From: Fidelibacterota bacterium
GTDB taxonomy: Bacteria; Fidelibacterota; Marinisomatia; Marinisomatales; SCKK01
Assembly (NCBI GenBank): GCA_004124475.1
Contig: SCKK01000002.1
Coordinates: 1 to 64,000, forward strand
Length of the DNA: 64,000 nucleotides
Reading direction: 5' to 3'
Shown: positions 41,562-51,106 of the stretch, one piece after another
Numbering within the stretch: the stretch's first letter is position 1
Layout of the letters: every line of letters begins with the position of its first letter
Program-made: the position numbers and the translations under genes
The notes under the pieces: model-generated
Database searches by the model: none
Told to the model about the DNA's origin: nothing
What the model saw: the letters and a program-made list of their open reading frames with translations, nothing else

Positions 41562-42341
41562 ATGGCAAACAAAACATTCGCAATCTTAACAGATATACAT
41601 GGAAATCTCTCTGCTCTGAAAGTTGCTCTTTCCCAAATCGAAAAACACAAAGATGTCGATCAAATTATTTGCTTGGGGGATAATTTCGCTCTTGGGCCTG
41701 CTCCAAAAGAAGTTTTACACCTCCTCAAAGGCTTAGATAACTGTGTGTTCTTAAAAGGAAATCACGACCGTTATATCATTGAAAAGATTTGGGAACACGA
41801 AACTCCCACTATTGAAGGGATGAGTCCGGATGACCCCGTAAATCAGGGAATTGTGCAACATGAGCAATGGACATACGACCAGCTTGGGGAAGAAGGAATT
41901 AATTTCATTAGACAAATGCGAATTTCCCACCGGGTAAAAGTAGACTCAACATTGGTGGAATTTTGCCACGCCTGGTATGAGCGTGACGATCAACCCCCCT
42001 CACTAGAGGAGGCACTCACCTGGCGGAACCATGTTAAGGTTCGGTATCCTGATATTAAACTTTTTATTTTTGTACATGGTCATGTTCACCTCTACCGGAA
42101 AGAGGGAAACGGTAATCTGGAAATTCTCTGCCAGGGCAGCACGGGCTTGCCCTTTGATAAAAATCGGAATGGAGCTATCGGTTACCTCACCGTTGGTAAC
42201 GAGTACCGATGGGAAGTGGAACGATTCGATTATGACTCAGATGCAACGATCAATCTCCTGGAAAAACTTAAACCTCCCTTTTATCGTAATCTGCAGAATA
42301 CGATCAAATACGCCGAGATCCGAAACGAGTTTTTCGATTAG
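41562..42341 (+). CDS. Calcineurin-like metallophosphoesterase
   Basis: About 259 residues from the ATG at 41562 ('MANKTFAILTDIHGNLSALK'); a longer frame from 41523 adds 13 non-conserved residues. Metal ligands are 'DIHGN', 'CLGDNFALGP', 'LKGNHDRY' and the C-terminal 'FVHGHVHLY'. It resembles the YfcE/ApaH-type single-domain phosphodiesterases; the natural substrate is unknown. Monocistronic. Confidence 0.88.
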   Translation: MANKTFAILTDIHGNLSALKVALSQIEKHKDVDQIICLGDNFALGPAPKEVLHLLKGLDNCVFLKGNHDRYIIEKIWEHETPTIEGMSPDDPVNQGIVQHEQWTYDQLGEEGINFIRQMRISHRVKVDSTLVEFCHAWYERDDQPPSLEEALTWRNHVKVRYPDIKLFIFVHGHVHLYRKEGNGNLEILCQGSTGLPFDKNRNGAIGYLTVGNEYRWEVERFDYDSDATINLLEKLKPPFYRNLQNTIKYAEIRNEFFD

Positions 42342-42456
42342 TTTATCTTCCTCGTTCATCGAGCGGCTCCATCCTAAATTGGTTTTTGATAGCAGGAATA
42401 CATTCTCTTTTTAAGGAACTATTTATAGTATTAACCGGCTATTTAGATAAGTGACT

Positions 42457-43503
42457 ATGAAAAAACAGAGGTTATTGTTTCTAGTTTCCCTCTTTCTTCT
42501 GACTATCACCTTCATCACTTGCAATAAAAACCCAACTGATGACAAGGACTCACCGAAATGGGAAGCCCTTGGATATAGGGACAGGTTCGAATCTCGCCTG
42601 GTCATGGCAGACCCTTACTTGTACGTCTGCGGAGCTATCGACGGACTGTGGAGAAAGAATGTTCGCCAGGAAGATGCAGACTGGGAATATCTTGGCTTAG
42701 CCGACCCAGCGGGTTCATGGAGCAATGGGAACGGCGTCCGACATGTGGTGATACACCAGGAAAACCCTGACTGGTTGATGGTGACGTTTAACACCGGAGG
42801 AGCAGGGCAACACAAAATCTACCGATCACTGGACGGCGGGCAAAACTGGGCACGGGCGGACAGTGGGGTGTCAAGCCCAGGCAGCATTCAGTTATTTCTT
42901 CAATATCCGGACCGCATATTAGGCGGTGGATTATTGATTTACTCCAATCAGGATTTTGGAAACCATTGGGAAATAGTAGCTAATGGTCGTCAACAAGTTA
43001 ACATTTTCGCTAACCATCCGATAGCCAAGCATATTTGCTGGATGGGCGGCACGACGGCTTTTTCCAGGGGCTTTTTATTTAAATCGGCTAACTCGGGTAG
43101 AACATGGGAAGAAATTGACCTTCAGCAAGTTATCCCTTCGGTCAATGTCATTTACAACATTGCCTTTGATGCTACAAATTCCGACATGGTTTATGTTGGA
43201 ATGAGTAGTGGGATAATTAAAAGTAGTGATGGTGGTCAATCGTGGATAAACATTGCTGGTATTGATACCATCTATAGTGTGCTTGGTTTAGTGGCAGATC
43301 CTCGAAGTACGCAACATCTGTGGGCGGGAAGTGCTGTTCAAGGCAAAGCCTTTTGGGAAACATGGGATGCCGGTAATAGCTGGCAACCTATCGAGGTTCC
43401 CAACGACGATTCTCTAATCGTTTATGATATAGTCTGGGATGAGGTCGAGGAAGTACTGTATGTAGCCACGCCCAATGATATTTTCCAGTTCACGCCTGAG
43501 TGA
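42457..43503 (+). CDS. BNR/sortilin-like beta-propeller lipoprotein, copy 1
   Basis: A 348-residue exported protein with lipobox 'TFITC' and propeller blades showing Asp-box motifs 'SLDGGQNW', 'SANSGRTW' and 'SSDGGQSW'. Such propellers bind glycans or proteins on the cell surface; no enzyme motif is seen. ATG 42457 is used (GTG 42451 also open). Its signal peptide ('KKQRLLFLVSLFLL') differs from copies 2-4, while the mature part is close to copies 2-4 at the start and to copy 4 at the end. It is followed 30 bp later by subtilase head 1. Confidence 0.85.
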   Translation: MKKQRLLFLVSLFLLTITFITCNKNPTDDKDSPKWEALGYRDRFESRLVMADPYLYVCGAIDGLWRKNVRQEDADWEYLGLADPAGSWSNGNGVRHVVIHQENPDWLMVTFNTGGAGQHKIYRSLDGGQNWARADSGVSSPGSIQLFLQYPDRILGGGLLIYSNQDFGNHWEIVANGRQQVNIFANHPIAKHICWMGGTTAFSRGFLFKSANSGRTWEEIDLQQVIPSVNVIYNIAFDATNSDMVYVGMSSGIIKSSDGGQSWINIAGIDTIYSVLGLVADPRSTQHLWAGSAVQGKAFWETWDAGNSWQPIEVPNDDSLIVYDIVWDEVEEVLYVATPNDIFQFTPE

Positions 43504-43533
43504 TGAACTAAAATTTAATTAAAAGGAAATACT

Positions 43534-43782
43534 ATGAATAAACAAAATACTTTCAATCAATGCAAACCTTCCCACATAATGTGGCTTATTGTTTCTCTTC
43601 TTATGGCGTCAGGATTTAACCAAGTGCAGGCACAAACCTTTGAATTGCAGGGCCGGGAATATAAACAAATGTATGGGGTGTGGTACAACGTCGTCAGTGG
43701 CAGGCAGGGCGACCAAATTGTTCCTCAACGTCTCATCGTTCGACTACGTGATCGGCGCAATGTGAGGAGATTTGACCTTTAA
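43534..43782 (+). CDS. Truncated subtilase head 1 (signal peptide plus start of propeptide)
   Basis: 82 codons identical or nearly so to the first 80 of the full subtilase at 47701, with the same signal peptide ('NQCKPSHIMWLIVSLLMASG', cleavage after 'QAQ') and 'TFELQGREY'. It ends at a TAA exactly where heads 2 and 3 read on for about 8 residues to 'KKNL'. It would be a secreted ~45-residue peptide. Possibly just duplication debris, possibly a trans-acting propeptide. Confidence 0.6.
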   Translation: MNKQNTFNQCKPSHIMWLIVSLLMASGFNQVQAQTFELQGREYKQMYGVWYNVVSGRQGDQIVPQRLIVRLRDRRNVRRFDL

Positions 43783-43849
43783 AAATACAAGAAGAACCTG
43801 AAAATTATCGAAGGTTATTAATGATAATGATACTGTATTTGGACCCAAC

Positions 43850-44899
43850 ATGATATACATATCAAAACGATTATATTCCTTCCTGTTATTTTCAGCTATT
43901 CTGCCATTGTTCTTCACATGCGGGAACAACCCAACTGATGACAAGGACTCACCGAAATGGGAAGCCCTTGGATATGGAGACAGGATCGCATCTCGCCTGG
44001 TCATGGCAGACCCTTACTTGTACGTCTGCGGAGCTATCGACGGACTGTGGAGAAAGAATGTTCGCCAGGAAGATGCAGATTGGGAATATCTTGGCTTAGC
44101 CGACCCAGCGGGTTCATGGAGCAATGGGAACGGCGTCCGACATGTGGTGATTCACCAGGAAAACCCTGACTGGTTGATGGTGACGTTTAACACCGGAGGA
44201 GCAGGGCAACACAAAATCTACCGATCACTGGACGGCGGGCAAAACTGGGCACGGGTGGACAGTGGGGTGTCAAGCCCAGGTAACATTCAGTTGTTTCTTC
44301 AATATCCGGACCGCGTATTAGGCGCCGGTTTATCCATTTACTCCACTCATGATTTTGGAAACCATTGGGAAATAGTAGCTAATGGTCGTCAACAAGTTAA
44401 CATTTTCGCTAACCATCCGATAGCCAAGCATATTTGCTGGATGGGTGGATCCACTGCTTTTATGGAGGGCTTTATACTTAACTCGGCTAACTCGGGTAGA
44501 ACATGGGAAGAAATTGACCTTCAGCAAGTAAACCCTGGTGGTGGTATACATAGCATTGCCTTCAATGCCGCTGACCCTGATATAGTTTATCTGGGTACGG
44601 GCTTGGTCTTAAAAAGCACGGATGGCGGTCAATCATGGATTCGTATGCCAATCAATAACATGGTATATGACGTTGGTGCTTTGGTAACAGACCCTCGAAA
44701 TACACAGCACCTGTGGGCAGGAAGTGGTGTTCAAGGCAAAGCCTTTTGGGAAACATGGGATGCCGGTCATAGTTGGCAGCTTGTCGTGGTTCCAGGTGCC
44801 GATTCTCTCGTGGTATACGATATGGTTTGGGATGAGGTCGAGGAAGCGCTGTATGTCGCCACGCCCAATGATATTTTCCAGTTCACGCCTGAGAGATGA
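43850..44899 (+). CDS. BNR/sortilin-like beta-propeller lipoprotein, copy 2
   Basis: 349 residues, signal peptide 'IYISKRLYSFLLFSAILPLF' with lipobox 'FFTC'. The N-terminal half matches copies 1 and 4 ('LGLADPAGSWSNGNGV'). The C-terminal half matches copy 3 ('QQVNPGGGIHSIAFNAADPD'), giving a mosaic. Upstream DNA ('tatttggacccaac') is shared with copies 3 and 4. Followed 28 bp later by head 2, which has a different signal peptide. Confidence 0.85.
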   Translation: MIYISKRLYSFLLFSAILPLFFTCGNNPTDDKDSPKWEALGYGDRIASRLVMADPYLYVCGAIDGLWRKNVRQEDADWEYLGLADPAGSWSNGNGVRHVVIHQENPDWLMVTFNTGGAGQHKIYRSLDGGQNWARVDSGVSSPGNIQLFLQYPDRVLGAGLSIYSTHDFGNHWEIVANGRQQVNIFANHPIAKHICWMGGSTAFMEGFILNSANSGRTWEEIDLQQVNPGGGIHSIAFNAADPDIVYLGTGLVLKSTDGGQSWIRMPINNMVYDVGALVTDPRNTQHLWAGSGVQGKAFWETWDAGHSWQLVVVPGADSLVVYDMVWDEVEEALYVATPNDIFQFTPER

Positions 44900-44927
44900 C
44901 ATCAACCTTAATTTAAAGGGGTAGACC

Positions 44928-45197
44928 ATGAATAGGCAAAATCTTCTGAGAGGTAGTAAAAATTCCTACATAGTGTGGCTTATTACTTTCCTTTTCGTAA
45001 CTATAGGACCCGAGCAAGGATATTCACAAACCTTTGAATTGCAGGGCCGGGAATATAGACAATTGGATGGCGTGTGGTACAACTTCGCAAATGGAAGGCA
45101 GGGCGACCAAATTGTTCCTCAGCGTCTCATCGTTCGACTACGGGATCGGAGTTACTTGAAGGCGTTTGGCATTGAACAATACCAGAAAAACCTGTAA
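44928..45197 (+). CDS. Truncated subtilase head 2
   Basis: 89 codons. The signal peptide ('NRQNLLRGSKNSYIVWLI') differs from heads 1, 3 and 4, while the mature start 'QTFELQGREYRQLDGVWYN' is the shared propeptide. It ends 'GIEQYQKNL' then stop. The tail 'QYxKNL' is shared with head 3 and lies out of frame in head 1, showing a common right junction of the duplicated unit. Confidence 0.55.
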   Translation: MNRQNLLRGSKNSYIVWLITFLFVTIGPEQGYSQTFELQGREYRQLDGVWYNFANGRQGDQIVPQRLIVRLRDRSYLKAFGIEQYQKNL

Positions 45198-45237
45198 ATT
45201 ATCGAAGGTTAATTGTGATATAGTATTTGGACCCAAC

Positions 45238-46278
45238 ATGATATACATATCAAAACGATTATATTCCTTCCTGTTATTTTCAGCTATTCTGCCATTGTTC
45301 TTCACATGCGGGAACAACCCAACTGATGACAAGGACTCACCGAAATGGGAAGCCCTTGGATATGGAGACAGGATCGCATCTCGCCTGGTCATGGCAGACC
45401 CTTACTTGTACGTCTGCGGAGCTATCGACGGACTGTGGAGAAAGAATGTTCGCCAGGAAGATGCAGATTGGGAATATCTTGGCTTAGCTGATACAAGTGG
45501 ACTACAGGTGACTTGGAGGGGCGTCCATAATTTGGTAGTTTATTACGATAATCCTGATTGGCTTATGGTGGCGTATAGTGACGGAATTAGCTATAAGGTC
45601 TTTCGCTCGCTTGATGGAGGACAGAGCTGGGCACGGGCCGACAGTGGAGTGTCAAGCCCAGGCAACATTCAGTTGTTTCTTCAATATCCGGACCGCGTAT
45701 TAGGCGCTGGGTTATTGATTTACTCCACTCAGGATTTTGGAAACCATTGGGAAATAGTAGCTAATGGTCGTCAACAAGTTAACATTTTCGCTAACCATCC
45801 GATAGCCAAGCATATTTGCTGGATGGGTGGATCCACTGCTTTTATGGAGGGCTTTTTACTTAACTCGGCTGACTCAGGTAGAACATGGAAAAAAATTGAC
45901 CTTCAGCAAGTAAACCCTGGTGGTGGTATACATAGCATTGCCTTCAATGCCGCTGACCCTGATATAGTTTATCTGGGTACGGGCTTGGTCTTAAAAAGCA
46001 CGGATGGCGGTCAATCATGGATTCGTATGCCAATCAATAACATGGTATATGACGTTGGTGCTTTGGTAACAGACCCTCGAAATACACAGCACCTGTGGGC
46101 AGGAAGTTTCCTTCAAGGCAAAGCCTTTTGGGAAACATGGGATGCCGGTCATAGTTGGCAGCTTGTCGTGGTTCCAGGTGCCGATTCTCTCGTGGTATAC
46201 GATATGGTTTGGGATGAGGTCGAGGAAGCGCTGTATGTCGCCACGCCCAATGATATTTTCCAGTTCACGCCTGAGTGA
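45238..46278 (+). CDS. BNR/sortilin-like beta-propeller lipoprotein, copy 3
   Basis: 346 residues from the ATG shared with copy 2; an upstream ATG at 45166 would read through head-2 DNA and is not native. It has a unique block ('LADTSGLQVTWRGVHNLVVYYDNPDWLMVAYSDG' region, about 45488-45610) replacing the segment of copies 1, 2 and 4. Its C-terminal half is nearly identical to copy 2. Lipobox 'FFTC' as in copies 2 and 4. Confidence 0.85.
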   Translation: MIYISKRLYSFLLFSAILPLFFTCGNNPTDDKDSPKWEALGYGDRIASRLVMADPYLYVCGAIDGLWRKNVRQEDADWEYLGLADTSGLQVTWRGVHNLVVYYDNPDWLMVAYSDGISYKVFRSLDGGQSWARADSGVSSPGNIQLFLQYPDRVLGAGLLIYSTQDFGNHWEIVANGRQQVNIFANHPIAKHICWMGGSTAFMEGFLLNSADSGRTWKKIDLQQVNPGGGIHSIAFNAADPDIVYLGTGLVLKSTDGGQSWIRMPINNMVYDVGALVTDPRNTQHLWAGSFLQGKAFWETWDAGHSWQLVVVPGADSLVVYDMVWDEVEEALYVATPNDIFQFTPE

Positions 46279-46308
46279 TGAACTAAAATTTAATTAAAAG
46301 GAAATACT

Positions 46309-46578
46309 ATGAATAAACAAAATACTTTCAATCAATGCAAACCTTCCCACATAATGTGTTTTATTGTTTCCCTTCTTATGGCGTCAGGATTTAACCAAGT
46401 GCAGGCACAAACCTTTGAATTGCAGGGCCGGGAATATAGACAATTGGATGGCGTGTGGTATAACTTCGCAAATGGAATTCAGGGTGACCGGATTGTTCCT
46501 GAGCGTCTCATCGTTCGACTACGTGATCTCAGCGACGTGAAGGCGTTTGACATTGTACAATACAAAAAAAACCTGTAA
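46309..46578 (+). CDS. Truncated subtilase head 3
   Basis: 89 codons with the same signal peptide as heads 1 and 4 ('HIMCFIVSLLMASGFNQ'), propeptide 'TFELQGREYRQLDGVWYN' and tail 'DIVQYKKNL'. Same junction as heads 1 and 2. Upstream spacing (30 bp) and DNA ('tgatgaactaaaatttaatt') are shared with heads 1 and 4. Confidence 0.55.
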   Translation: MNKQNTFNQCKPSHIMCFIVSLLMASGFNQVQAQTFELQGREYRQLDGVWYNFANGIQGDRIVPERLIVRLRDLSDVKAFDIVQYKKNL

Positions 46579-46617
46579 ATTGTTAAAGGTTAATTATGAT
46601 ATAGTATTTGAACCCCC

Positions 46618-47670
46618 ATGATATACATATCGAAACGTTTTTATTCCTTCCTGTTCTTTTCAGCTATTCTGCCATTGTTTTTTACATGTGGGAACAATCC
46701 AACTGATGATAAAAACTCACCGAAATGGGAAGCCCTTGGATATGGAGACAGGATCGCATCTCGCCTGGTCATGGCAGACCCTTACTTGTACGTCTGCGGA
46801 GCTATCGACGGACTGTGGCGAAAGAATATGCGCCAGGAAGATGCAGACTGGGAATATCTTGGCTTAGCCGACCCAGCGGGTTCATGGAGCAATGGGAACG
46901 GCGTCCGACATGTGGTGATACACCAGGAAAACCCTGACTGGTTGATGGTGACGTCTAACACCGGAGGAGCGGGGCAACACAAAATCTACCGATCGGTGAA
47001 CGGCGGGCAAAACTGGACACTAGCAGACAGTGGAGTGTCAAGCCCAGGCAGCATTCAGTTATTTCTTCAATTTCCGGACCGCATTTTAGGCGCAGGTTTA
47101 TCCATTTACTCTACCGTGAACTTTGGAAACCAATGGGAATTGGTAGCTAATGGTCGTCAACAAGTTAACATTTTCGCTAACCATCCGATATCCACACATA
47201 TAGTCTGGATGGGTGGCGAGACGGCTTTTATGGATGGCTTTTTACTTAAGTCCGTCGATTCGGCTAAAACCTGGCAAGTGATTGACCTTCAACAGGTGAT
47301 CCCTTCAAGCAATGCCATCTACAGCATTGCCTTTGATGATACGAATTCCGACATGGTTTATGTTGGATTGGGTAGTGGGATAATTAAAAGTAGTGATGGC
47401 GGTCAATCGTGGATAAACATTGCTGGTCTTGATACCATCTACGGTGTGCTTGATTTAGTGGCAGATCCTCGAAGTACGCAACATCTGTGGGCGGGAAGTG
47501 CTGTTCAAGGCCAAGCCTTTTGGGAAACGTGGGATGCCGGTAATAGCTGGAAATCTATCGAGGTTCCCAACGACGATTCTCTAATTGTTTATGATATGGT
47601 TTGGGATGAGGTCGAGGAAGCGCTGTATGTCGCCACGCCCAATGATATTTTCCAGTTCACACCTGAGTGA
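46618..47670 (+). CDS. BNR/sortilin-like beta-propeller lipoprotein, copy 4
   Basis: 350 residues with lipobox 'FFTC'. N-terminal block like copies 1 and 2 ('GSWSNGNGV'), C-terminal block like copy 1 ('SDMVYVGLGSGIIKSSDGG'). Several replacements ('ETAFMDGFLLKS', 'KTWQVIDLQQVIPSSNA') make it the most diverged copy in its middle. It immediately precedes the full-length subtilase. Confidence 0.85.
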   Translation: MIYISKRFYSFLFFSAILPLFFTCGNNPTDDKNSPKWEALGYGDRIASRLVMADPYLYVCGAIDGLWRKNMRQEDADWEYLGLADPAGSWSNGNGVRHVVIHQENPDWLMVTSNTGGAGQHKIYRSVNGGQNWTLADSGVSSPGSIQLFLQFPDRILGAGLSIYSTVNFGNQWELVANGRQQVNIFANHPISTHIVWMGGETAFMDGFLLKSVDSAKTWQVIDLQQVIPSSNAIYSIAFDDTNSDMVYVGLGSGIIKSSDGGQSWINIAGLDTIYGVLDLVADPRSTQHLWAGSAVQGQAFWETWDAGNSWKSIEVPNDDSLIVYDMVWDEVEEALYVATPNDIFQFTPE

Positions 47671-47700
47671 TGAACTAAAATTTAATTAAAAGGAAATACT

Positions 47701-49875
47701 ATGAATAAACAAAATACTTTCAATCAATGCAAACCTTCCTACATAATGTGGCTTATTGTTTCTCTTCTTATGGCGTCAGGATTTAACCAAGTGCAGGCAC
47801 AAACCTTTGAATTGCAGGGCCGGGAATATAGACAATTGGATGGCGTGTGGTACAACTTCGCAAATGGAAGGCAGGGCGACCGGATTGTTCCGCAGCGTCT
47901 CATCATTCGACTACATGATCGCAGCGACGTGAGGATATTTGACCTTGAACAAGCTGGTTTTTCTCAAGTTAATGTCGTTTCAGGGGAGCTGTTTGGCGGA
48001 TACTATGTAGTGGAGGTAACCAGTCCTCATGATCCTTTTGTTATTGCGTTAAAATTTTCAAAAAATCCTTTGTTTGACTATGTAGAGTTTGATGCATTAG
48101 GAGAATATTACGGTACACCAAATGACCCATTGTATTCCAATCAATGGTATTTACCGAAAATTAGTGTGCTCCAGGCATGGGATATCAATACCGGTTGTAA
48201 TTCCATCATATTGGCGGTAATCGATAGTGGTACTGATTACGGGCATGAGGACTTGGATGGCAACATCTGGGTGAATCCAGCCGAAGATTTTAACGGGAAC
48301 GGGACAGCAGATTTCTACCCCTATTATGTTGGTGGTGATCTGGATTGGAGTGATAATGACAACAATAGTAAAGTGGATGACTTAGTGGGCTGGGATTTTC
48401 AAGACGGTGACAATGACCCTTCCGGTACCTATTATCATGGCACGGCGGTGGCAGGGGTGGCTCTCGCCCAGACAAACAATTATGAATATGGCAGTTATCT
48501 TGGCGTTGCCGGAGTAGCGGGCGGTTGGGCGGCTTCTCAAGGTGTTTAACTCATGTCACTACGGGTAGAAAATTATCAGCCATTACTCTCACAGGCTACC
48601 GAGGCAATAACCTATGCCGCGGAAAACGGTGCCCGCGTGATCAATATGAGTTTTGGATTTGGAGTGCCTTATGCTCCTATGGAGGCAGCGATAAACAACG
48701 CCGCTGACAACTACAATTGTGTGCTGGTGGCTGCTGCCGGGAATTATGGCACAGATGTTGACCACAATCCAGAGAAAAAAAATGTGCGATACCCGGCAGC
48801 CTATGATAAAGTCATTGCCGTGGGCGCCACAACTGAAGGCGATATAAGGAAAGAATTGTCAGATGGCACTGATGAAGGGAATTGGGGAAGTTGCTATGCC
48901 TATAGTTATGGAGGAGAGGACCCCCGACCATTGGATGTTATGGCTCCAGGGATTCATATTCAGACGACGGACATTACCGGGTCAGCAGGGAGAGATCCGG
49001 GGAACTACTATTCATCTTTTAGCGGCACCTCCTCCGCTGCACCAATCGTTTCCGGGTTGGCAGCGCTTATTCTTTCCATTAATGCTAATTTATCCTGGTC
49101 CGAGGTTAGGGACATTATTCGTAATACAGCCGACGAAGTACCAGCAATGGGAGGTGAGAATTTCACCGATGAATATGGCTATGGGCGCATCAATGTTTAT
49201 GCGGCATTATCCGCCGTAGAACCGTCACCTGCGGTGCCGGTAAATTTCCATAAAGAACTGCACTCGATACGCGGTGGATGGAACCCTATTCTGGTCTGGT
49301 CGCCAAATAGTGAACCTGATCTGGCTGGGTATCAGTTATATCGTAAATTCGTGCCTGGCTCATGGCACATGCGCGCCCAATTATCTTCCACTCAGACCTC
49401 GTTTACCGATGGCGAAATCTTCATATCTGCCTCAGGCGGGAATATCGAATACGTCCACTATAAAGTAAGGGCATTTAGTGATTGCTATTATTCTGATTTT
49501 ACGAATTCGCTGGTGGTACGGCACAATGAGTTGGGAGGATTCAAGCAGATTGCCGGAGAGCCAACCGAAGTCTTACCTGACCAATTCACCCTGCACCAAA
49601 ACTTCCCTAACCCCTTCAACCCTTCCACCACGATCTCGTTTGATCTTCCCGAGGCATCAGACATCCATCTGATCATCTACACCATCACTGGAGAAACGGT
49701 TGCTTCCGTAATCAAAACCGCAATATCTGCCGGATTCAGAGAAGTTCAGTGGGATGGAACCGATGTGTCAGGCAAGCTTGTCCCATCAGGAATCTATTTT
49801 TACCATCTGGAAGCAAGAGCAATTGAAACTGGAAAAACCTTTCAACAAAGTCGGAAGATGGTGCTCATACGGTAG
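47701..49875 (+). pseudogene. Secreted subtilisin-like (S8) protease with FlgD/T9SS-type sorting tail, interrupted by an in-frame TAA
   Basis: Read across 47701-49875 this is a 724-codon subtilase. It has a signal peptide, a propeptide, Asp175 in 'AVIDSGTDYG', His246 in 'HGTAVAG', oxyanion Asn in 'AAAGNYG' and catalytic Ser in 'FSGTSSAAPIVSG'. A fibronectin-like stretch follows, then a C-terminal 'NFPNPFNPSTTI' plus FlgD-like sorting domain. A TAA at 48547-48549 (codon 283, likely from CAA or AAA) splits it in frame. The downstream part could restart at ATG 48553. The N-terminal piece alone lacks the catalytic Ser. It is a recent nonsense mutation, a sequencing error or a real two-piece gene. 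Confidence 0.85.
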
Positions 49876-49954
49876 TCCATTTTTCAGCTTTATAGAGTAA
49901 TAATATTTCTAGTTTCTCTACCTCTCTTTTCACTTATATTATTAAGTTATAAAG

Positions 49955-51106
49955 ATGATCTACTTCGATTATTGTGCCACAACACCCCTTGACAAGCGGG
50001 TCGCCGCGCTCATGGCGAATGTGAACGAAAATGTTTTTGGGAATCCGTCAAGTATACATCGGTACGGTCAGGAGGCAAAAGGGTATGTGGAGAGAGCCAG
50101 AAGGCATGTGGCTTCCGCCATCAACTGCCAACCCAAGGAAATTATCTTCACCGGCGGTGGGACAGAGGCAAATAATATTGTGTTGTGGAATGTCCTCCGT
50201 GAAAATAAAAAACATGTCATTCTTTCAGCAATTGAGCACCCCTCCATTTCAAAAACGATATCCTTACTGGCTAATTGGGGTATTGAATATACTATCATCC
50301 CGGTAGATTCTTTCGGAATCGTAAACCCGAACTCCGTTCGAGACGCAATCCGGAATGACACCGGTTTGGTCACCGTAATGTTCGTGAATAACGAGACCGG
50401 AACTATCGAACCCATTGGTGAAATATCACAACTTTGTCTGGAGAGAGGGATTTATTTTCACAGTGATGGCGTCCAGGCATTGGGGAAAATTCCTGTTGAC
50501 GTCCGATCTTTAAATGTGACCAGTATGAGTTTTTCCGCTCACAAATTATACGGTCCGAAAGGCGTGGGAGCTCTCTACTTGAGCGAAGGAACACGATTGA
50601 ATCCCCTGGTCGTTGGAGGCAGCCAGGAAGGAAACTTCCGTGCAGGTACAGAAAACGTGCCCGGGATTACCGGATTCGGACTGGCAGCAGAATTGGCTAT
50701 TGCAATACTGGAAACCGAAAAGGATCGACTAAGAAAACTGGAGCAACATTTCCTCGAGAGTCTCATCGAAAATATTCCCAATCTCACGATAAATGGTCAT
50801 CAGGAACACCGAGTGCAGGGCGTGATCAACATAACGTTCCCGGATGTACCGGGAGATGATTTGCTGATGAACCTTGATCTGAACGGAATAGCCGTATCCG
50901 GTGGATCGGCTTGCTCATCCGGAACTCTAAAGCCATCCGAGGTACTAAAAGCAATGGGAATCTCCGATAGGTTAAATCGCCGTACGATCCGGATATCCTT
51001 GGGCAGATATACTAGTAAATCCGATGTCCATGTCCTCGCTGAAGCTATTGTTAAGCATGTACAGCACCTGAAAAAAGTTAATACACCTTTAGAGACTCAC
51101 GCATGA
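49955..51106 (+). CDS. Cysteine desulfurase (NifS/IscS family)
   Basis: A 383-residue PLP enzyme releasing sulfur from cysteine for FeS clusters and tRNA thiolation: 'YFDYCATTPLD', 'FTGGGTEANN', the PLP-lysine in 'SFSAHKLYGPKGVG' and the catalytic Cys loop 'SGGSACSSGTLKPS'. Its stop overlaps the mnmA start by 4 bp (ATGA), so it most likely delivers sulfur to MnmA. Normal length. Confidence 0.93.
   Translation: MIYFDYCATTPLDKRVAALMANVNENVFGNPSSIHRYGQEAKGYVERARRHVASAINCQPKEIIFTGGGTEANNIVLWNVLRENKKHVILSAIEHPSISKTISLLANWGIEYTIIPVDSFGIVNPNSVRDAIRNDTGLVTVMFVNNETGTIEPIGEISQLCLERGIYFHSDGVQALGKIPVDVRSLNVTSMSFSAHKLYGPKGVGALYLSEGTRLNPLVVGGSQEGNFRAGTENVPGITGFGLAAELAIAILETEKDRLRKLEQHFLESLIENIPNLTINGHQEHRVQGVINITFPDVPGDDLLMNLDLNGIAVSGGSACSSGTLKPSEVLKAMGISDRLNRRTIRISLGRYTSKSDVHVLAEAIVKHVQHLKKVNTPLETHA

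Follow-up and report, generated by a model that had tools for sequence, protein, structure and literature searches.

A mosaic tandem array of beta-propeller lipoprotein genes and subtilase remnants in a Fidelibacterota genome, probably shaped by horizontal exchange and recombination

The window analysed here is a stretch of 64,000 nucleotides of contig SCKK01000002.1 (C44 in the host genome G000, a Fidelibacterota assembly of 3.15 Mb in 77 contigs that is 95% complete). Between a metallophosphoesterase gene (stop at 42341) and nifS (49955) it contains an array of four genes for a putative lipoprotein, termed Lp below, accompanied by three stumps of a subtilase gene and one full-length subtilase frame (Table 1). 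The genes are arranged in repeat units of 1.38-1.40 kb with spacings of 1399, 1388 and 1380 bp, in agreement with the original prediction of four units of about 1.39 kb sharing nearly identical blocks of DNA. That prediction had also placed a subtilase head behind every Lp copy; this holds for units 1-3, which consist of an Lp gene and a stump of 82-89 codons, but in unit 4 the Lp gene is followed by a full-length frame, whose in-frame TAA had been missed. The Lp ORFs are intact in all four copies. Given that the intergenic gaps across the array measure only about 30-70 bp, and that terminator-like sites between the units are not in excess over chance (1 site versus a mean of 6.0 in shuffles), a single transcript covering all copies is plausible. 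A search for IS ends bordering the array recovered none, and no recombinase gene adjoins it in its neighborhood.

Table 1. Features of the array in window coordinates; for the exchange blocks the position is that in the copy named, with the equivalent positions in the last column.
Feature	Position	Strand	Basis or equivalent positions
Lp copy 1, block types S1-B1-C1	42457..43503	+	ORF; Pfam Sortilin-Vps10, 46.2 bits; mosaic analysis
Truncated subtilase stump 1, 82 aa	43534..43782	+	Translation; 70% aa identity to subtilase N-terminus
Lp copy 2, block types S2-B1-C2	43850..44899	+	ORF; Pfam; block comparison
Truncated subtilase stump 2, 89 aa, divergent signal peptide (block H2)	44928..45197	+	Translation; block comparison
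Lp copy 3, block types S2-B2-C2	45238..46278	+	ORF; Pfam; block comparison
Truncated subtilase stump 3, 89 aa	46309..46578	+	Translation
Lp copy 4, block types S2-B1-C1	46618..47670	+	Uniform 93% DNA match to single copy of another family, without breakpoints
Full-length S8 subtilase frame, FlgD_ig/Por_Secre_tail C-terminus, in-frame TAA at 48547-48549	47701..49875	+	ORF; translation; profile matches
Block S, copy 1 (leader and signal peptide)	42440..42536	+	43839-43935, 45227-45323, 46607-46703
Block B, copy 1 (~143 bp, ~48 codons, ends in first Asp-box)	42702..42845	+	44101-44244, 45489-45626, 46869-47012
Block C, copy 1 (~300 bp, ~100 codons)	43131..43434	+	44530-44827, 45912-46209, 47298-47601
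Block H, copy 2 (intergenic and stump signal peptide)	44893..45024	+	43500-43630, 46275-46405, 47667-47797
Segment absent from congener G001 (edges approximate)	42300..50115		Identity drops near phosphoesterase end, recovers inside nifS

Sequence analysis of the Lp proteins bore out their predicted membership of a lipoprotein and propeller family. All four copies exceed the Pfam gathering cut-off for Sortilin-Vps10, with partial coverage of the profile, and fall below all NCBIfam cut-offs. Copy 2 displays five Asp-box-like motifs (pattern S-x-D-x-G-x-T/S-W) at residues 126, 166, 212, 256 and 302, a feature which, together with the Sortilin-Vps10 score, it shares with the Asp-box beta-propellers such as Vps10/sortilin, GH74 and Ycf48 (PMC2716378); Lp carries no catalytic assignment, and its sequence profile matches propeller structures over part of its length only. 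An AlphaFold model built from only five close sequences had a pLDDT of 33 and was discarded. At the N-terminus there is a lipoprotein-type signal peptide with a cysteine (Cys 24) that is invariant across the window copies and locus L048, and this cysteine is followed by an acidic patch. It is preceded in the window by a non-canonical threonine; canonical lipoprotein boxes (LGC, GSC, AGC) are seen in the relatives from genomes G010, G070 and G110. In the related Bacteroidota, acidic residues right behind the lipoprotein cysteine often go with surface exposure. On the basis of these features the Lp products are probably exported to the surface, in a genome that encodes the type IX secretion system (T9SS) protein SprA. 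The export signal of surface lipoproteins in Bacteroidota is treated elsewhere (PMC5080379). Comparisons with anti-phage families recovered no match for Lp and only generic S8 matches for the subtilase, and the viral contigs and phage records searched contained no relative.

The subtilase frame behind copy 4 possesses a Peptidase_S8 domain (119 bits) and a borderline match to the Por_Secre_tail profile TIGR04183 (23.2 bits versus a cut-off of 23), and the T9SS translocon protein SprA is recognized in the genome with 747 bits. The S8 domain, the type A sorting tail and SprA that mark a T9SS-exported subtilase are all present, yet the gene in the window is cut short by a premature stop. The module subtilase is broken at every locus of this genome, by the TAA in C44, a frameshift in C20 and truncation in C74, so that the Lp-subtilase pair may be decaying here. 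As a side observation, the truncated subtilase start behind the Lp of C74 (L028 7344-10590) is directly overlapped by a gene for a 953-aa helicase/restriction-like protein without any family above cut-off. In another genome, G062 (L085 1120-1482), the subtilase start behind Lp is fused to KMVLLK and a stop, resembling the last six residues of a sorting tail, and the catalytic domain seems to have been deleted.

Each of the three stumps in the array matches the N-terminus of the subtilase before its frame passes into the leader of the following Lp. The join in unit 3, GTGAAGGCGTTTGACATTGTACAATAC, resembles what the subtilase has at the equivalent position, GTGAGGATATTTGACCTTGAACAAGC. A comparable stretch precedes the lone Lp of a genome from another family; either duplication via short homology or an old remnant of the subtilase at that place would be compatible with this. 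Most simply, the stumps would have arisen by a tandem duplication that ended, on its right side, within the subtilase gene. A better account of what had been proposed as a conserved export head is that it was carried along at the end of such a duplication. The nonsynonymous/synonymous ratios between the stumps (0.40-0.74 over codons 38-81) are largely a legacy of the functional period and say little on whether the stumps may be selected free propeptides.

Alignment of the units resolved four exchange blocks, S, B, C and H, each with two types that are 49-69% identical, versus mostly 90-100% in the flanks; immediately to the left of block C, copy 4 shows greater divergence. In block S copy 1 is the odd one (49% identical to copies 2, 3 and 4), in block B it is copy 3 (56-57% to copies 1, 2 and 4, which share 96-99%), and in block H it is copy 2 (61-63% to copies 1, 3 and 4). 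Block C separates copies 1 and 4 (92%) from copies 2 and 3 (99%), with 67-69% between the groups. The groupings originally reported for the mid block (1, 2, 4 against 3) and the end block (1, 4 against 2, 3) are thus those of B and C, and the shuffling extends to S and H, which had escaped notice. The recombination signature claimed for the array was recovered as breakpoints from alignment at the DNA level combined with shuffles: among 364 biallelic sites, 249 neighbours show the same partition versus 70.9±7.6 (maximum 97) in 5000 column shuffles, and the max-chi2 value lies above all 200 shuffles for every window pair. Chance is excluded as the cause of this clustering.

The divergence of the block types indicates considerable age. 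Overall dS between types is about 0.9-1.8 (about 0.9-1.6 in block C and 1.2-1.3 in block B), versus 0-0.06 for the neighbouring frame in copies 1-3, and dN/dS between types is about 0.25 (range about 0.2-0.3), signifying purifying selection. Being old and under such selection, the types are long-separated functional alleles joined by recombination, and not products of hypermutation. Types S1, B2 and H2 each occur in one copy only, leaving three of the four alternative blocks without a donor in the array; their donors hence lie outside the present array, which is not a closed cassette library and must have either received blocks from other strains or lost earlier copies. As the Asp-box-like motifs are spaced 40-46 residues apart, block B would correspond to about one propeller blade and block C to about two, a correspondence that, drawn from two blocks, is only suggestive. 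Copies 2 and 3 share an exact tract of 262 bp, and as the genome is a metagenome-assembled one of 77 contigs from short reads, distant blocks could in part be wrongly phased; the block junctions themselves are local. An independent genome shows a mosaic relation of like kind to copies 1-3.

Across the phylum, Lp was detected at E below 1e-20 in 9 of 245 genomes, and a subtilase or its N-terminus lies behind it in 9 of the 12 loci examined (G000 C44, C20/C40 and C74; G061 C134 and C19; G003; G212; G239; G062). This makes the pairing genuine and old, though not universal: in G110 and G070 Lp occurs without a subtilase, and the locus in G010 ends at the contig end. The Lp of G000 C40/C20 (L088 15734 and L089 13550, at contig ends) is split by an IS with a 4-bp duplication of ATAC, and a similar IS-end sequence is also found at 6422 in L064, downstream of a subtilase. 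Upstream of the split Lp, C40 (L088 2900-15700) contains paralogous stretches encoding a secreted protein of about 1050 aa with a sorting tail, the last copy of which has 96% DNA identity to that of the other-family genome.

This other-family genome, G061 (coordinates and scores in the phylum search equal to those of G109; same order as G000, different family), carries on JADFRD010000082.1 one Lp and a subtilase start with 94% DNA identity over 1.6 kb to window positions 46535-48120. Over the first 140 subtilase codons dS is 0.03, against a background between the two genomes of 68% identity for ValRS and 68-71% for RlmD fragments, and the module neighborhoods differ, being phosphoesterase-NifS in G000 and RlmD in G061. 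The differences between copy 4 and the G061 Lp are uniform and show no breakpoint, from which it follows that copy 4 and its subtilase are probably the resident pair and copies 1-3 rearranged duplicates. Also in the G061 island are another Lp and a chimeric subtilase, which combines two module types. The congener G001 has an empty site, with the phosphoesterase gene directly followed by nifS, and another empty site is seen in G110, a congener of G061, between RlmD and TrkA. Fixation of the array in all related genomes, which would have spoken against the original prediction, was not observed: the array is missing from the congener and has a single-copy counterpart in another family. A chimeric assembly of the G061 module is unlikely, because its two module-bearing contigs match the opposite flanks of the one G110 empty site. 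In the window the first ~58 codons of nifS (49955-50115) have about 53% DNA identity to the congener and the remainder about 95%; leaving the direction of change aside, this profile is as would be expected after replacement by flank recombination with the nifS start as one edge. A repeat of ~42 bp (L048 4135-4205) is scattered over many places in both G061 and G110, at about 82-93% identity.

The account that we consider probable, with real room for doubt, is that of a horizontally exchanged island in which Lp was amplified and made mosaic by homologous recombination. The core of the island would be a two-gene pair, namely an outer-membrane Asp-box beta-propeller lipoprotein and, behind it, a secreted subtilase bearing a type IX sorting tail. 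Tandem duplication ending about 82 codons into the subtilase gene would have amplified Lp, and with such an end point each extra Lp drags along a dead or near-dead protease stump. Unequal crossover or gene conversion within the array would then have swapped blocks through the conserved frame, with divergent alleles also imported from other strains by homologous recombination, resulting in mosaics of old, functional block types. At the surface the Lp products would probably serve as binding proteins, either for ligands or as anchors or partners of the protease, and the allelic blocks may tune what is bound. Of this account the data show the mosaicism, the age of the blocks and the purifying selection on them, the conservation of the pair, its transfer between families and the empty sites; the duplication route, the surface location, the partnership and an adaptive value are inferred. 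Taken together, the array looks like a slowly shuffled surface system and not a proven switching machine; its diversification would be evolutionary, with no demonstrated programmed switch.

An alternative that we regard as rather unlikely is that the diversity is a neutral by-product, produced by chance tandem duplication of a decaying module and concerted evolution through gene conversion with no selected benefit. The breakage of every module subtilase in G000, the IS interruption of another Lp and the lack of an excess of amino-acid changes in the blocks would all fit such a history, but the four Lp ORFs are intact with dN/dS of about 0.25-0.4 between copies, and homogenisation alone would have removed the three private block types that persist. 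The original prediction leaned towards a dedicated system akin to antigenic variation, in which ongoing recombination in the population would switch the expressed variants under phage, grazer or ligand pressure. The conserved frame with interchangeable blocks, and identical tracts of up to 262 bp suggestive of recent exchange, agree with this; several Lp loci also lie at contig edges, a weak sign of population variation, as roughly one in four genes of such size is estimated to touch an edge in these fragmented assemblies. However, both a silent donor library and an adjoining recombinase are absent, every copy seems complete, co-transcription is conceivable, and the blocks are ancient and under purifying selection instead of hypervariable, making active switching improbable. 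We hold it very improbable that Lp serves in the control of the subtilase or in self-protection against it, with extra copies kept against partner alleles in the manner of orphan immunity gene arrays. The tight gene pairing and the intact Lp beside a broken protease point that way, and profile comparison connects Lp to the dispase autolysis-inducing protein, a propeller whose name refers to its effect on a protease; but this match is weak and of a type common to many Asp-box propellers, and Lp stands alone in G110 and G070.

Among known systems, the closest precedents would be, by analogy, the Staphylococcus aureus lpl cluster in organisation and the dentilisin operon in function. The lpl cluster of nuSaalpha consists of tandem lipoprotein paralogues for which a conserved internal region is proposed as a driver of shuffling and duplication (PMC4470592), and its repeat unit covers two adjacent genes (Tsuru & Kobayashi 2008, as cited in PMC4470592). 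The likeness, one of organisation only, includes same-orientation tandem lipoprotein paralogues, a conserved internal region with variable flanks, location in a genomic island and homologues elsewhere in the genome. In contrast, lpl is not described as protease-paired in PMC4470592, whereas the window units include protease stumps, and block divergence in the window approaches synonymous saturation. In the prcB-prcA-prtP operon of Treponema denticola lipoproteins are likewise encoded upstream of a subtilisin-family protease, which they are proposed to anchor and stabilise at the cell surface; homologues of PrcB are stated to be absent outside oral treponemes (PMC8167434). The dentilisin operon lacks an array, and the window subtilase scores 89.4 bits versus a cut-off of 300 for the PrtP model. 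Segmental recombination among lipoprotein cassettes is also known from Borrelia vls (PMC11499132). However, the single expression site with silent donor cassettes that defines vls/pil-type systems is absent from the window array, in which all copies are complete ORFs.

To our knowledge, well-studied mosaic surface-protein arrays come mostly from animal pathogens. An array in an uncultured marine phylum, with very recent transfer between families and empty sites in two congeners, offers a concrete locus for following, in environmental long reads, how surfaces diversify under pressure from phages, grazers or ligands. Tentatively, and with more doubt than confidence, families of uncultured Marinimicrobia might share a pool of interchangeable Lp blocks and matching subtilase segments, which move as islands and are reshuffled in tandem arrays by homologous recombination, amounting to cross-lineage surface diversification in free-living bacteria.
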